DNA of 20,221 nt from the IMG/VR virus record IMGVR_UViG_3300007276_000413, positions 1 to 20,221 of that record. One strand, written 5' to 3'. How positions within the stretch are numbered: position 1 is the stretch's first letter; each line of letters starts with the position of its first letter. This document shows, one piece after another, positions 1,130 to 9,906 of this stretch. The DNA comes from a virus. The notes beneath the pieces are model-generated. The model was given only the letters and a program-made list of their open reading frames with translations, did no database searches and was not told where the DNA came from. Both the position numbers and the translations under genes were made by a program.

Positions 1130-1453
1130 CTACGCTAACTCGGCGGGTACAACGATGTCCATGTACCCCTCATTGGGGAACGTCTCGACAGCGCCTCCGG
1201 CGTACGTCACCTGGAACTCAGCTTCATAGTCTCCTGCGTCCTGTGTATCGCCCAAGGCAAAGTCGTACCGAACGACTCCGGTGGGGCCGTCAACGACGAC
1301 GGCGGGTGCGACCAGAACCGCGTTACGGTTCCGTTTGTTCCGCATGTGGAAAAGGATAGTAGCGCCGCTCACGTTAGCTGCGGTGCGGTCAGGGTTCACT
1401 AGGCGCGCTAGAAGGGCCGGTGATGTATCGTTTTGCTTTATGATAAAAGTCAT
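1130..1453 (-). CDS. BppU-like baseplate/fibre-associated beta-sandwich protein
   Basis: A 107-residue protein beginning MTFIIKQNDTSPALLARLVN and continuing with GATILFHMRNK, then DAGDYEAEFQVTYAGG. This is the pattern of the N-terminal domain of phage BppU (upper baseplate) proteins, an Ig-like sandwich found in many tailed phages beside receptor-binding genes. Length fits one such domain with nothing appended, so it may be an adaptor or short decoration rather than a full baseplate arm. A GAGGG Shine-Dalgarno precedes the ATG by six bases. The gene follows the two fibre genes with a 33-base gap that contains a small hairpin (TTGCC/GGCAA). Confidence 0.72.
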   Translation of the reverse strand: MTFIIKQNDTSPALLARLVNPDRTAANVSGATILFHMRNKRNRNAVLVAPAVVVDGPTGVVRYDFALGDTQDAGDYEAEFQVTYAGGAVETFPNEGYMDIVVPAELA

Positions 1454-1486: not shown

Positions 1487-3388
1487 TTAGTCCAAAAATA
1501 CAACACTGTTCGGCGCGTCCGTTATTGGGTAGGCGTTGTTGGTTTCCCCCGAACCGACACCCGCTACGTTTGGTCCCCAACGGTACGAGACGGTGTCAAA
1601 CACCGACGTGTTTTTCATGTCGTCATCGTAGTAGTGCTCCCGTGGGAACGCTGCATCCACGTACCCTAGGCTCAAGACCGGAACCCCGGAAGTGATAACA
1701 GAAGCGCTCAGTGCGTGGTCTTGCGCCAGTGAGCTGGTGCCTAGCACAGGCACGCCGGACAGGATATCCTGCGCTGTAAGGCTGTTCTGGACAGCGAACG
1801 TCGCGGAAACCCCGCCGAGGGAGAACGACGTGGTGTCGGCGGTTACGCTAGTGGCGAACCGTGTGCTGATGTCTACCCCGGATAGGGTGAACGCCCGCGC
1901 GTCGGCTGGAAGCACAATTTCGAGCTCGAGTGCAGCGTCTACCCCAGTGAAACTGAACGCCCCTGTGTCGAACGGGGTGATGGTCGACACCTCAAAGAAC
2001 GCGTTTACGCCCGCGAGCGAGAACGATCCTACAGCGGCTTCTAAGTTGCCCGCATTTGACAGCCCTACGTCGTAACCGGTTATCGTGAGCGCTGCTTGGT
2101 CCGCATGCAGTATGACGTTTGTGGTCAGGCCCGCGTCTACTCCGGTCGCAGAGAACGACCTCGTGACTGCGGGGAGGTGAGCGGCTCTCGTGAACTCGAC
2201 GTCAAAGCCTGTGGCAGCAAAAGACCGCGTGTCTGCGGTTCTGATAAAGCTGGCAGCTAGCCCGGTGTCGCTACCGTTCAGCGCAAACGTTCCAAGCAGC
2301 GCAGCAAACTCGCCGTCGGTAACAACGCCAACCTGAATTCCTGCCAGATCATACGCGCGGGTCTCAGCTGAGATCACGAACGTCCGTGGGGACGCCTCTG
2401 CGGCAATACCGGTGAGGGTAAACGCCCCTGTAGACGCTCCCATGACCACGATTGTGGCGAGTCCAGCGGCGATACCAGTGTAGTTGTACTGCGCCCGCAC
2501 AGCGGGAAGTTGGATAACGCGTGTCAGGCCGACGTCAACTGGAGTGACCCCAAATGTGGCCGCGTCAGCGTTCAGGAACAGCCCTTTTTCGAACGTCGCG
2601 TCTACACCGGTTGCATTGTAACCGTTTGTATCAGCGGGCATGACCAGGCTAGTCGGTAGCGTAACGTCCAGACCGGTCAGGGCAAACGACGCCGTGTCTG
2701 CGAGCATCGAGTACCCGCGCTGGAACGTCGCGTCGATGCCCGTAAGGGAGAACGGCCCGACTATGACCGTTAGGTCAATGCCGAGTTCGATGTTTAGGTC
2801 AACGCCTGTAAGCGAGAAAGCGCCAACGGTGACTGGTAGTGGGAACCCGCGCGGGAACGTCGCGTCGATGCCACTAACCGAGAACGTGCCCGCCGTAACA
2901 GGGAGCGTGTACCCGCGCGGGAACGTCACGTCGACGCCGGTCAGCGCGAATGAGCCGGTGTCCGCAGGCATGACCAGATCGCTCTGGAACGTCGCGTCAA
3001 TGCCCGCAAGCGCGAACGTACCGGTGTCCGCAGGCATGACTACGTCGTTGAGGAACGTCGCGTCGATGCCAGCCAGCGCAAGCGCACCGGTCTCCGCAGG
3101 CATGACTCGCCCAAGCTCGAGCGGAACCTCAAGGTTAGACAGCGTGAAGGGGCCCAGGTCTGCGGCGAGGGCGTAAACACCCACCGCAGAAAGTTCCGCC
3201 TTAAACTCAGCCCATGTGGCGAAGAAGTACCCGTTAGGCGTTACACCAGTGTCCACGCCGGTGACAGCAAACGCGCCTACGACACAGTCCAGCGTGTACG
3301 CACCGTTAAACGAAGCGTCCTGAATGGGGGCACCCAGGTGATCTAGTAAGATGTTACCTTGGTGGTCTTCTAGGAAACCGGCTGGCAT
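1487..3388 (-). CDS. Repeat-rich tail fibre-like protein (633 aa)
   Basis: The protein is mostly a solenoid of about twenty 22-residue units (residues 95-535) with the pattern hydrophobic-M-P-A-D-T-G-x-F-A-L-T-G-I/V-D-A-x-F plus four variable residues. Residues 1-94 include two degenerate relatives of the unit around 35-49 and 77-90. After the array come two copies of a second motif (ILSGVPVLG and ITSGVPVLS, about 540-580) and a polar tail with YYDDD. Related short repeats are, from memory, frequent in phage and alphaproteobacterial surface proteins, but I know no assigned function. Low Cys and Trp, high Thr/Asp/Gly and the short beta-strand-like period suggest an extended fibre. GGGGGAT precedes the ATG. 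It sits nine bases after the 927-aa fibre gene, with which it shares the repeat. Confidence 0.85.
   Translation of the reverse strand: MPAGFLEDHQGNILLDHLGAPIQDASFNGAYTLDCVVGAFAVTGVDTGVTPNGYFFATWAEFKAELSAVGVYALAADLGPFTLSNLEVPLELGRVMPAETGALALAGIDATFLNDVVMPADTGTFALAGIDATFQSDLVMPADTGSFALTGVDVTFPRGYTLPVTAGTFSVSGIDATFPRGFPLPVTVGAFSLTGVDLNIELGIDLTVIVGPFSLTGIDATFQRGYSMLADTASFALTGLDVTLPTSLVMPADTNGYNATGVDATFEKGLFLNADAATFGVTPVDVGLTRVIQLPAVRAQYNYTGIAAGLATIVVMGASTGAFTLTGIAAEASPRTFVISAETRAYDLAGIQVGVVTDGEFAALLGTFALNGSDTGLAASFIRTADTRSFAATGFDVEFTRAAHLPAVTRSFSATGVDAGLTTNVILHADQAALTITGYDVGLSNAGNLEAAVGSFSLAGVNAFFEVSTITPFDTGAFSFTGVDAALELEIVLPADARAFTLSGVDISTRFATSVTADTTSFSLGGVSATFAVQNSLTAQDILSGVPVLGTSSLAQDHALSASVITSGVPVLSLGYVDAAFPREHYYDDDMKNTSVFDTVSYRWGPNVAGVGSGETNNAYPITDAPNSVVFLD
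1784..3106 (-). repeat. About twenty 66-bp tandem repeats inside the 633-aa fibre gene
   Basis: Counting in the protein, 18 of 20 consecutive units are exactly 22 residues, one is 24 and one 21, giving a 66-base period. The best conserved DNA segment on the plus strand is GGAACGTCGCGTCGATGCC and close variants, seen for example near 2725, 2862, 2985 and 3052, encoding the G-I-D-A-T-F core. Units near the start of the gene (about 2850-3106) are most alike and those near its end most diverged, as expected for an array that grows by local duplication. The repeats are in frame throughout. Confidence 0.9.
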
Positions 3389-3397
3389 GTGATCCCC

Positions 3398-6181
3398 CTA
3401 GACCTGGCTGACTTGGAAGCGAAGGAACAAGTCGTTGTAGTCGGTGATAGCAGCCTTTTGCGGAGCTGTCAGCGCCATCACGCTAAGGGCGGGGCCAACC
3501 GGTAGGTCGACGTGAGCCTGCGAAGCAATTACTGCCGCGCCCTGCTCCAAGTAAACTGTTGCGTCCATCTGGGTGTTCGCGCTGCTCTTTCCGATAACGT
3601 ACGTGAGCGCGTGCGGCCCATCAGGGTTCACGAAATCTCCAGGGTCAGACAATCGCACTCTGTATTCGCTAGCCGAAGGGGCCAACTCCGAGCGCACGTA
3701 TGTGCCGTCGTCCCGCACTGTTTCGCCGATCGAAGCCCACAGCCCTGTTGTAGCACCGACTTCGTTCTGCCACGCGCCAACGCTATTATCTGCGTCAGGG
3801 CGCATAAACAGGAACGTGTATGCTTCAGCTATATCTGAGCCAGCAAGCGCAAAGGTGCCCACTGTGGTCGGCATCACCAGGGCGACAGGAAACTCCACGG
3901 ATACGCCTGCGACAGCGAACGCACCTACTGTGACCGGTAGGCTCTTCCCTAGAAGGAACGTCGCGTCGACGCCCGTCAGGGCCACGGAGCCGGTGATTGC
4001 GTCGAGTATGATTGCTCTTTGGAACGCCGCGTCGACGCCCGTAAGTGTGAACGGGCCTACCGTCGCTGGCATCACCAGGGCGACAGGGAACGTCGCGTCG
4101 ATACCGGTCAGCGCGAAAGTGTTGACGTCCGCAGACATAGTAACGTCAAGGGTTCCGGCTGCGCTGAAGGTCGAGACGTCAGAAAAAGCAGCGACGCGGT
4201 AGTAATATTTGTTGGTGACCGCCGTCGCCGCAAAGGTCGAGACGTCAGAAAAAGCAGCGACGCGGTCGTAAGTTGTGTTGGTAGCCGCCGTCGCGGTCAC
4301 TGTAGACGCACTCGCGAACGCAGCTGCCCGACTTAATACTGTGTACTTTACAGCAGTTGCGGTGAATGTGGACGCGGCCCCAATCGTAGCGCTACGGCTT
4401 TCCGTGCGTGTTGCTGTGGCCGATACGGTTGAGGCAGAAACAATGGCGGCGGTTCTATCGAAGGCGTTAACTGGACCGAGGTCGGTGATTGTCCAGCCGT
4501 CCCGGCTGATCAGCAAACCTCGCGCGGTCGCTGCTGCTCCACCGCCGGTATATTTTGTCTGGTTGAAGTCAGCGATTATCGCATCTGGCGGCGTCCCTGC
4601 AGTCGCCTCCATGTTTATGAGCCATGCGTCGTAGTCCGCTCGCGCCAATGCGGAGGCGGTCATAAAATCGTCGAGACCATTACCCGCGCCTGCTACAACG
4701 CCCGCGACGCTGAAGTTTTCAATACCCGGACAAGACACTGTCGGAGACGTGTCGATCGAAAAGAACATGCGGAAAAAGCTGGTGACACTTGACGTGTCCC
4801 AGCTTGCACCAAACGTGACGCTTGTTAGGTTCTCCGTGTTGGAGAACATGTACTCCAAGCCGTTCCCTGTCAGTGCTGTGGTTGTCCAGCTTGAGAGGTC
4901 TATTGTGGTGATAGCAGTGTTCGAGAACATAAACCGCATTGTGGTCGCGGAAGACACGTTCCACGCCTCGATGCCCGTTACTGCCGCGAGAGATGAACAG
5001 CCCTCAACGAAGTTCCGCATGTCGGTGACTATGCTGGTATCCCAGTCAGTAACATCGAGCGACGTCAACGACGAACAGTTGCGGAACATCTGGTAGACAG
5101 TCGTGACTGTGGACGTGTCTACCATCGACATGTCTATCGAAGCCAGTGAAGTACAGTCTTGGAAAACTCCACGGAAGTCGTTGAAAAGTGGGTCGTCCGT
5201 GAAGAAACCAGTCCAGTCCGCAGAGGTTAGGTTGGAGCAGCCGCTGAAAGAGTACGGGAAGTCACGCCACCCTACGGAGCCAATGATGACGCTGTTGACC
5301 CGATCCTTGCTTGTCCCAACACCGTCAAAACTGATGTTTGCAAACTGGCGCAGAACCCTGATGTCGTAGGTTGCCGCTGCGCCGGAATACGTGTGCGCCA
5401 GAGCGGCATCGTCAAAGGCCGTGATCACGCTGGAGCTACCGTCGCCCCACTCGATGGTCGCGTCAAAAGAACCGTTGCTTACGCAGGGGATCGTGAAGAC
5501 TTCGTCAGCGCCGACCGTGGTGATGTTCATCGAGAACGGAACACCAACCCAAGGATCGGAGGCGGCGACAGTCGAAGCGCTGGTGATCGCAGCGGTTCTG
5601 TCGAAGGTGGTGACGGTAGGGGAGGCTTTGAGATTAAAGCCATAACGGGCTTCGTCTATTATTACGGTGTTGTCTATTTCAGGGTAGAAGTAGAAGAAAT
5701 GCTCTGCGTCGTGATCTACGCCGTCATCAATCGAGAATACCAGTTCAAACTCATATTCGTCGTTGCCGTTTGTCGCTGCTAATGTGCTGTCTGTGCTTCC
5801 TTCGTTGTAGCGAATTACGCCGTCATTAAGGGTTCCAGACCCAAGCACTTGTGTAACGGTATCCCCCGGCCATACTTGGTTGTCGGTGCAAGCCACAAAG
5901 CCGTCCGTACCCACGGATACATAGGTGTTGCCGCCATAGTTTTGCGCGTTGTCGGTACTCTTGCGGTACACGAGGTTGAGAACTGGTTGCGCCGCCGTTG
6001 TTGCGCCTGCGATCTCTTGCACAAGAAACCGCATCCGGTATTGAACACCAGCCTCAATGGTTTCTGACAGAAAGCCAGAACTCAAGACAGCGGTTGTGCC
6101 TATCTGACCAGTGCCTTGCGCTCCTGTATCAGCGTATATCGCGCACGCCTGTACCCGCCAAACTGGGTTGACGTGTGACAT
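3398..6181 (-). CDS. Multidomain tail fibre: PKD-like, BspA-type LRR and short repeats (927 aa)
   Basis: Domains in order: residues 1-190, a beta-rich N-terminal region of unknown family; 193-205, a single FDRTAAITSASTV unit; about 215-285, a PKD-like fold (IEWGDGSS then LAHTYSGAAATYDIRVL); about 297-495, BspA-type leucine-rich repeats of the DUF285 kind (CSSLTSLDVTDWDTSIVTDM and relatives); about 505-569, the usual LRR cap (YDAWLINM ... KYTGGGAAATARGLLISRDGWTITDLG split across the cap); 572-676, five FDRTAAI-type units; 680-789, five 22-residue units shared with the next gene; 790-927, a terminal beta domain starting MRPDADNSVGAW. BspA LRR and PKD domains are protein- or glycan-binding modules on bacterial surfaces, so receptor recognition is the likely role; that is inference. 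The ATG overlaps the previous stop (TAATG). Confidence 0.87.
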   Translation of the reverse strand: MSHVNPVWRVQACAIYADTGAQGTGQIGTTAVLSSGFLSETIEAGVQYRMRFLVQEIAGATTAAQPVLNLVYRKSTDNAQNYGGNTYVSVGTDGFVACTDNQVWPGDTVTQVLGSGTLNDGVIRYNEGSTDSTLAATNGNDEYEFELVFSIDDGVDHDAEHFFYFYPEIDNTVIIDEARYGFNLKASPTVTTFDRTAAITSASTVAASDPWVGVPFSMNITTVGADEVFTIPCVSNGSFDATIEWGDGSSSVITAFDDAALAHTYSGAAATYDIRVLRQFANISFDGVGTSKDRVNSVIIGSVGWRDFPYSFSGCSNLTSADWTGFFTDDPLFNDFRGVFQDCTSLASIDMSMVDTSTVTTVYQMFRNCSSLTSLDVTDWDTSIVTDMRNFVEGCSSLAAVTGIEAWNVSSATTMRFMFSNTAITTIDLSSWTTTALTGNGLEYMFSNTENLTSVTFGASWDTSSVTSFFRMFFSIDTSPTVSCPGIENFSVAGVVAGAGNGLDDFMTASALARADYDAWLINMEATAGTPPDAIIADFNQTKYTGGGAAATARGLLISRDGWTITDLGPVNAFDRTAAIVSASTVSATATRTESRSATIGAASTFTATAVKYTVLSRAAAFASASTVTATAATNTTYDRVAAFSDVSTFAATAVTNKYYYRVAAFSDVSTFSAAGTLDVTMSADVNTFALTGIDATFPVALVMPATVGPFTLTGVDAAFQRAIILDAITGSVALTGVDATFLLGKSLPVTVGAFAVAGVSVEFPVALVMPTTVGTFALAGSDIAEAYTFLFMRPDADNSVGAWQNEVGATTGLWASIGETVRDDGTYVRSELAPSASEYRVRLSDPGDFVNPDGPHALTYVIGKSSANTQMDATVYLEQGAAVIASQAHVDLPVGPALSVMALTAPQKAAITDYNDLFLRFQVSQV
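3815..4144 (-). repeat. Five 66-bp repeats shared with the 633-aa fibre gene
   Basis: Residues 680-789 of the 927-aa protein are five units of the same 22-residue repeat that fills the neighbouring gene (for example FALTGIDATF, FTLTGVDAAF, VALTGVDATF). The plus-strand core GGAACGTCGCGTCGACGCC near 3955 and variants near 4020 and 4087 match copies in 1784-3106, so the relation is visible at DNA level. Confidence 0.88.
4154..4468 (-). repeat. Second repeat family (FDRTAAI-type), about five units
   Basis: Residues 572-676 carry FDRTAAIVSASTV, RSATIGAASTF, SRAAAFASASTV, DRVAAFSDVSTF and YRVAAFSDVSTF at roughly 20-22 residue spacing. The last two units are nearly identical in DNA: a 34-base match at 4167-4200 and 4233-4266, exactly 66 bases apart. 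A further single unit lies at about 5567-5605, on the other side of the PKD/LRR module. Confidence 0.85.
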
Positions 6182-7367: not shown

Positions 7368-7901
7368 CTATAAAAACCATATGGTGAAGTCGGCGGTAAC
7401 GCCTGTACGGTTGTTCATCGTGATATACGACTCGGTGTCAGAAACATAGTCGGCTCCTGCTCTGACTGACCCGTCAGTCGCGGCTGTCCCCGATCCAGGG
7501 CCGGTCCCGTTCGCCTCGAAAAGCGCGCCGCTGCTACCCCAGTCGTTGCTAGACGTCTTCTCGGCAGAGTCAACGCGGTAGGTCACGCGCCCGCAAAAGT
7601 CCAAATTCGACGTGCCAGAAGCCACGTTGTGGGCGATGTAGCACACCCCCCTCGTCATCCGCAGGTCTCCGGAAACTGTAGGCGCAACAAACTGGCCGAG
7701 CGCGTCGTCGGCTACAGTTATCTCTGAGGCGTATATCATTTTAGTGAGGAAGCGTCGGACCGGCACCATGACAACTTCGCCGTTGGCGTCGTTAGTGGTG
7801 TTGGAGACGTCTGTGATAGGCCCCATACGGTCGTTTACAGTGTCAGGTGTAATCCACCTAAAAATGTTGTGTGCGAGCGGGTCATTAATGTACGCCCCCA
7901 T
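7368..7901 (-). CDS. Virion protein, third of three tandem paralogues
   Basis: 177 residues from the ATG at 7901. I choose this over the GTG at 7913 because the ATG overlaps the previous stop as TAATG and GAGGTGG lies about eight bases upstream; the GTG would be part of that ribosome site. The sequence has V-V-M-V-P-V-R-R-F, then SEITVADDALGQFVAP, and ends ITMNNRTGVTADFTIWFL. These landmarks align with the two genes before it (7901-8416 and 8416-8979). The middle is Gly/Ser/Thr-rich (GTGPGSGTAATDGS). Two Cys are present. Function unknown; beta-rich composition and operon position suggest a decoration or short fibre protein. Confidence 0.8.
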   Translation of the reverse strand: MGAYINDPLAHNIFRWITPDTVNDRMGPITDVSNTTNDANGEVVMVPVRRFLTKMIYASEITVADDALGQFVAPTVSGDLRMTRGVCYIAHNVASGTSNLDFCGRVTYRVDSAEKTSSNDWGSSGALFEANGTGPGSGTAATDGSVRAGADYVSDTESYITMNNRTGVTADFTIWFL

Positions 7902-8416
7902 TACTCGATCCACCTCATAGGGTCACGGGAAAAGTAGAACGTCTGGTCGTCAGTTTGACCAATTCGGTTTTCTACGTGCAACGTGCGGTCCGACGAAGTC
8001 ACCGAGTGCGTTATTTCGCCGTCCACTCCGGAGGTGCCCGTTAATGCCGTGTTTTGTATAAACGCCGCCGCTGTCCCTACAGTGGTGTTGGCGTTGCCGA
8101 TGAAGCCAGCGCTGGGCTGCATCCAAAACGTAGTGGCGCGGGCTACAGCCATCCCTTTTGAGTATATGTTACCCTGTTTGAACACGTGCAACGCGTTGCC
8201 GTAGTCTGATGGGAAAACCAGTGTCCCGACGCTGTCGTCTGCGATCGTAAAAAGCCACCGGTAACGCACCTCGAACTGGCGCGTATGCGCGAGGGATATG
8301 TACTCCACGTCGCCGTCGGCGGTAGTCGCAGTGTCGTCGTCGTCAACCGCGAGCGTAGATAGCCCGAACGTGACATCGGCGAGGGCCATTTCTGGGTACG
8401 TGTTAGCCTTCCCCAT
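7901..8416 (-). CDS. Virion protein, second of three tandem paralogues
   Basis: 171 residues, beginning MGKANTYPEMALADVTFG. It shares with its neighbours the series VEYISLAHTRQFEVRYR, WLFTIADDSVGTLVFPSDYG, and a terminal HVENRIGQTDDQTFYF followed by an extra RDPMRWIE tail that the other two lack. Start and stop both overlap the adjoining genes by one base (TGATG and TAATG), and GAGG lies nine bases before the ATG. No known family is recognised. The alignment is by eye on short landmarks, so paralogy is likely but not proven. Confidence 0.8.
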   Translation of the reverse strand: MGKANTYPEMALADVTFGLSTLAVDDDDTATTADGDVEYISLAHTRQFEVRYRWLFTIADDSVGTLVFPSDYGNALHVFKQGNIYSKGMAVARATTFWMQPSAGFIGNANTTVGTAAAFIQNTALTGTSGVDGEITHSVTSSDRTLHVENRIGQTDDQTFYFSRDPMRWIE

Positions 8417-9534: not shown

Positions 9535-9906
9535 TTATGCCGGGTCGGGTATGCCCACAGTGACCGACGTTAAAGTAAACGTGTTACCGGAGGTAACGCT
9601 CTGTGCGATGCCGAGCGACCCAGCGGCCAGGAGACGGCTGTTTACCGTGTCCACAAGCGCGTAGTGCGTGGCAGTGCCCGTACCAGACACAGCGCCGTCC
9701 GTAACAGCGGAGACGACAACCTGGCGACCCCCACCAGTGCGGTCCTGGGGCGCGCCTATTGTCACCGTAGCTGTAGACCCTAGGCTGCTCGTGACTGTTG
9801 CGTCTACGAACGAGACCGCCTGCTGCGACGTGATGTGGATTTGGTTGACCTCTGTGTCCAGCACGGTCAGCCCGTTGTCGAAGACTCGGTCATTGAGAAT
9901 AGCCAT
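9535..9906 (-). CDS. Small virion protein (123 aa)
   Basis: Begins MAILNDRVFDNGLTVLDTEVN and contains IHITSQQAVSF, IGAPQDRTGGGRQVVVSAV and a C-terminal GNTFTLTSVTVGIPDPA. This pattern is one I associate with a small conserved structural protein found next to capsid and adaptor genes in alphaproteobacterial phages; no biochemical role is known to me. Sequence is beta-rich with almost no long helices. The very strong AGGAGGT ribosome site and a position directly after the adaptors suggest it is made in quantity, for example as a head decoration or tail protein; that is inference. Confidence 0.8.
   Translation of the reverse strand: MAILNDRVFDNGLTVLDTEVNQIHITSQQAVSFVDATVTSSLGSTATVTIGAPQDRTGGGRQVVVSAVTDGAVSGTGTATHYALVDTVNSRLLAAGSLGIAQSVTSGNTFTLTSVTVGIPDPA

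Follow-up and report, generated by a model that had tools for sequence, protein, structure and literature searches.

How does a phage protein come to carry, in the interior of its chain and between copies of a short repeat, a leucine-rich-repeat (LRR) module of the kind found in BspA-type proteins, and what might such a module do there? The protein in question, here called fib927 (927 aa), is encoded in a 20,221-base virus record from IMG/VR, the whole of which was analysed and is referred to below as the window. The genes on its minus strand start with a terminase-like gene, continue with those for an SU10-type portal, a putative scaffold, the capsid, and the adaptor, and lead on to the tail-region genes, among which fib927 (3398–6181, minus strand) forms a single open reading frame whose ATG overlaps the stop of an upstream 109-aa gene. 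Comparison with relatives delimits the neighbourhood by two conserved genes, g107 (1130–1453, minus strand) and, on the opposite side, g123 (9535–9906, minus strand), which in many relatives bound a variable interval. Directly downstream of fib927 lies a gene for a 633-aa protein (1487–3388, minus strand) made up nearly entirely of 22-residue repeats of a kind designated type B; towards its C-terminus it carries another repeat type, resembling that of repeat genes at the equivalent place in relatives. Elsewhere in the window, the adjoining small proteins g181 and g171 (7368–7913 and 7901–8416) both match one 270-aa protein of L291 and L295 and are probably copies of each other that have diverged, while a minus-strand frame cut by the contig edge (1–411) resembles, by eye, a glycosyl hydrolase 108-type phage muramidase.

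The first-pass annotation had recognised in fib927, by motif, a PKD-like domain followed by DUF285/BspA-type LRRs and a C-terminal cap, and this layout is borne out at ~residues 212–571 by profiles, aligned homologues, and predicted fold. Reading along the protein (all coordinates on the minus strand), an N-terminal domain for which no relative was found (residues 1–192; 5606–6181) is followed by a lone repeat unit beginning with the border peptide discussed below (residues 193–208; 5558–5605), the PKD-like domain (~residues 212–300; 5282–5548), the DUF285/PARCEL/BspA-type LRRs (~residues 301–495; 4697–5281), and a cap that is conserved in homologues and ends in WTITDLG (~residues 496–571; 4469–4696). 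Behind this module come a type A array of five 22-residue units starting with FDRTAAI (residues 574–680; 4142–4462), type B 22-residue repeats starting with FALTGVDATF, the type common to the next gene (residues 681–785; 3827–4141), and a C-terminal domain, likewise with no relative found, in which AlphaFold places beta strands from ~residue 839 onwards (residues 786–927; 3401–3826).

The LRR part is recognised by the Pfam profile DUF285 (PF03382; E = 3.1e-38, 130.6 bits against a curated cut-off of 25) and the NCBIfam PARCEL repeat profile (TIGR02167; E = 1.7e-18, 65.9 bits against a cut-off of 30). The PKD-like domain carries a WGDG...HTY motif and predicted beta strands; the Pfam models PKD_4 and PKD match 20 and 16, respectively, of 27 aligned sequences but leave the window copy unmatched up to E = 0.1, so that its PKD assignment is by homology. 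Alignment with two phage proteins spans the whole module, from the WGDG-containing Ig-like domain through the cap ending in WTITD. Structure prediction, which had been suggested as a check, returned a confident LRR solenoid for the module (27 aligned viral sequences; pLDDT 88.5, pTM 0.85), with strands every 26–28 residues, and the nearest solved folds were two BspA-type surface proteins, 4fs7 (Z = 16.0, 265 aligned residues, 6.5 Å) and 4fd0 (Z = 14.8, 259 aligned residues, 4.3 Å). The fold matches listed were filled by the LRR part and included no PKD structures, and a single-sequence phmmer search of the PDB gave no match; the best viral structural match was a Synechococcus phage S-SKS1 protein named as PKD domain-containing (M4QPG4). 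Modelled at full length, fib927 reached a pLDDT of 65, and its regions outside the module came out too poorly to be used in fold searches.

The use of such a module by a phage had been singled out as noteworthy, which proved overstated: a single profile scan found relatives of the module in 245 viral contigs, the best 80 of which were retained, and phage entries had already been annotated as BspA family LRR proteins (PMC7765460). Identity to viral sequences over the whole module was 26–44%. A tree built on the PKD and cap regions of about the best 80 viral and best 80 cellular copies, which shows neighbourhood rather than origin, placed the window copy together with 21 viral and 0 cellular copies in a 22-member clade (support 0.87). 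Its best viral BLAST match (E = 1e-47) likewise surpassed its best cellular match (E = 3e-36); judged by sequence, the window copy is thus closer to viral copies than to the cellular ones sampled. The companions of the module elsewhere are diverse. It lies C-terminal to a baseplate wedge protein in L091 and L092 (phrog_17744, E = 1e-187 and 8e-172) and to a major-tail-protein-like domain in L102 and L111 (phrog_1407), forms a 388-aa gene of its own beside the terminase genes of oyster phage KZY1 (Zobellviridae), and, in a 462-kb phage, makes up the ORF that immediately follows a fibre-like one. These many other protein contexts support its reading as a self-contained unit of PKD-like domain, LRRs, and cap.

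Fusions of the major-tail-protein-like domain to the PKD-LRR module were seen at 4135–5283 in L111, at 1–1125 in L112, and at 4264–5266 in L102, and a second, downstream ORF of L111 (6602–6925) has a closely similar N-terminus and runs off the contig; such fusions may represent tail-tube subunit variants that display an adhesin. In a Halobacteriovoraceae MAG, neighbouring genes each end in a PKD-LRR module, four of them in L171 (696–6664) and three in L172 (923–6412).

What sets the window copy apart is its position. Among 72 complete viral copies, the module ends its protein within 5 residues in 69 and within 60 in two, leaving one in which more follows; in fib927, 355 residues come after it. 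The internal position is therefore a real peculiarity of the fib927 module. Searches for relatives of the parts around it were uniformly negative: single-sequence scans of the viral contigs with whole fib927, its N-terminal part, its repeat and C-terminal part, and the next gene recovered none for the flanking parts; a tblastn search of phage records with the flanks gave nothing; and nothing came of a flank search, run without a positive control, of 385 genomes of one class chosen via a MAG titled Alphaproteobacteria. The N- and C-terminal parts had no Pfam, PHROG, or phage-record match, and none of the viral-contig scans, phage records, or 385 genomes yielded a homologue in which the fib927 flanks stand around another insert or around none. 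Since no homology to known fibre or tail proteins appears outside the module, we call fib927 fibre-like and would not file it as a member of a tail fibre or receptor-binding family. In view of these unmatched termini, its probable location in the virion is suggested by gene order and by the company that the module keeps elsewhere.

We then turn to the repeats that border the module. As the first-pass annotation had reported, the peptide FDRTAAI[TV]SASTV stands at both borders, at residues 193 (FDRTAAITSASTV) and 574 (FDRTAAIVSASTV), with 12 of 13 residues identical, whereas the best identity in 60 shuffled sequences was only 6–8; the second copy, which had been placed at 4430–4468, is actually encoded at 4424–4462. 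Both peptides belong to units of a 22-residue repeat, with one copy before the module and five after it, the second border copy being followed by four more units of ~22 residues before the second repeat type sets in. The DNA of the two border copies had also been described as similar, as would be seen if a binding cassette had been inserted in, or exchanged through, a repeat array. Similarity there is, with 30 of 48 bases identical over 16 codons, but third codon bases agree in only 4 of the 13 identical residues, against 4.6 expected from the codon usage of the window, so that the resemblance is what the common peptide forces. Units 5 and 6 provide a comparison case (40 of 48 bases identical, third bases equal in 11 of 13 residues) and are a recent duplication. 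Two neighbouring units at 4167–4228 and 4233–4294 are 90% identical in DNA, having duplicated recently, so the length of the array continues to shift.

Insertion or exchange of the module by recombination between the FDRTAAI units on either side could account for the near-identical border peptides and for an internal copy, with resumed repeats behind it, of a module that usually ends proteins. We consider it unlikely all the same: chance-level third bases show that no recent target duplication created the borders, which bear no trace of recent exchange, the searched sets held no homologue combining the flanks with another insert, and the peptide itself may be retained because it forms a strand in the repeat structure. 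In GC and GC3 the module is unremarkable beside neighbouring genes, and composition thus gives no sign of recent acquisition.

Exchange of binding parts is visible on a larger scale, in the interval between g123 and g107. Capsid relatives of the window (n = 80; 75–90% identity) had the head genes in common with it, but not the tail region. When relatives were instead collected by g123, nearly all intervals opened with a gene having a conserved stretch of 95 residues at its start; this anchor was present in 61 of 61 complete fibre genes at a median identity of 70%, while the remainder behind it was related in 9% of pairs and fell into 10 clusters. Across L251–L330, the interval after g123 thus presents itself as a hypervariable fibre locus, with one anchor and mostly unrelated C-terminal domains. 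According to Pfam and PHROGs, these C-terminal parts include a T4 gp36-like and long tail fibre match (L265), a YadA head (L281), an S74 chaperone (L313), a lactonase-like propeller (C-terminal part in L307, next gene in L029), and a DUF285 LRR (L304, L305, and L306). The combination of a conserved anchor with varied fibre-type C-terminal domains marks the interval as a fibre or receptor-binding locus. In the relatives, the gene before g107 is commonly rich in repeats. Outside its PKD-LRR part, fib927 showed no match to the anchor-type fibres, and the LRR of those fibres bears only a distant likeness to that of the window (36% over 170 residues), so the DUF285 LRR occurs in this interval in two different protein contexts. 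The window, L251, and L259 carry a different gene set after g123 (g123 itself being 100% identical in L251 and 73% in L259). The proposed exchange of binding domains is therefore supported in kind for the interval, where one anchor is followed in the relatives by unrelated C-terminal domains, but exchange through the fib927 repeats shows no trace at synonymous sites.

Taken together, these observations make it probable, in our judgement, that fib927 is a virion tail-region fibre or fibre-like protein of an SU10-portal-type podophage, equipped with an exchangeable, self-contained adhesion module. The N-terminal part would probably attach to the particle, the 22-residue repeats would form a shaft or spacer, and the LRR solenoid, placed alongside or inside this shaft, would expose a surface that binds a ligand on the host cell or in the environment. 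Being of a kind that moves between phage structural proteins, the module would have entered fib927 long ago, and in this group of phages binding parts would be swapped as a whole gene or C-terminal region between g123 and the repeat gene with g107. An adhesive function is suggested by the class of the module and its company elsewhere; LRR solenoids are the scaffold classically used for recognition by immune receptors and bacterial adhesins, although LRRs also have non-adhesive roles.

If fib927 were instead kept out of the virion and displayed on the host surface as a product of the phage genome, this would fit the fact that BspA-type LRR proteins are known mostly from cell surfaces (PMC2996958, PMC2843621). 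We regard this as very improbable, given that fib927 sits inside a run of tail genes with its start overlapping the upstream stop, has no evident signal peptide in its first residues (by eye), and occupies an interval that holds fibre domains in relatives. The module might, on the other hand, be an accessory decoration for environmental polymers such as mucus or algal and particle glycans, keeping the phage near its hosts rather than acting as a specific receptor-binding domain. Its internal, non-terminal position in fib927 and its fusion elsewhere to tail-tube-like and baseplate proteins are in keeping with such a role, and phage proteins with Ig-like domains, PKD types being among those covered, conferred epithelial adherence when displayed (PMC13370021); in relatives, the DUF285 part nonetheless stands at the variable C-terminal end of a fibre, which is the usual receptor-binding position. 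To this alternative we assign an appreciable chance, though one short of even.

Returning to fib927 as a fibre-like virion protein with an adhesion module, we note a bolder reading, less likely than not, in which environmental phages in general would recognise hosts through an exchangeable module of PKD plus BspA-type LRR, carried alike on fibres, baseplate, and tail-tube proteins, with the LRR surface setting host specificity as LRRs do in immune receptors. The literature searched yielded no experimental proof of a DUF285 LRR as a phage receptor-binding domain. With one PKD-LRR module distributed across baseplate, tail-tube-like, fibre, and stand-alone proteins, many phages become open to tests of host binding by LRRs; the window adds that this module can also sit inside a repeat array.

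Compared with known systems, the fib927 module resembles BspA-type/DUF285/PARCEL proteins (PF03382, TIGR02167) in its 26–28-residue LRRs, its repeat motif, and the fold class of 4fs7 and 4fd0, and it has in common with them a wide horizontal spread, described for PARCEL/DUF285 repeats in bacteria and protists (PMC2996958); unlike in those proteins, its LRRs lie in the interior of a tail-region protein of a phage, flanked by 22-residue repeats. The DNA dyad symmetry reported for PARCEL repeats (PMC2996958) is at most weak in the repeat-coding sequence of the window (self reverse-complement score 33 against 23.1 ± 4.2, with 3 of 200 shuffles as high) and was found in none of four phage homologues. 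Two further likenesses are by description: Vibrio jumbo phage pir03, in which DUF285 ORFs were noted (PMC7765460), and coral-mucus Vibrio phages, in which an LRR-like protein, at an HHpred probability of 10% there, lies within a highly variable tail-module insertion (PMC10945359). The NRAK-anchor fibres of related podophages (L304–L306) occupy the same genomic interval in the same phage group and bear a DUF285 LRR, but theirs is C-terminal and distantly similar, and fib927 lacks the anchor. The three-part architecture recurs in phage proteins composed of PKD, DUF285, and cap: S-SKS1 M4QPG4 matches the module in structure, and KZY1 ORF63 (XPQ49276.1) and LR756500 from an uncultured jumbo phage match all three parts over their full length at 30–36% identity, with the difference that in the latter two the module ends the protein, whereas in fib927 the chain continues beyond it for 355 residues.
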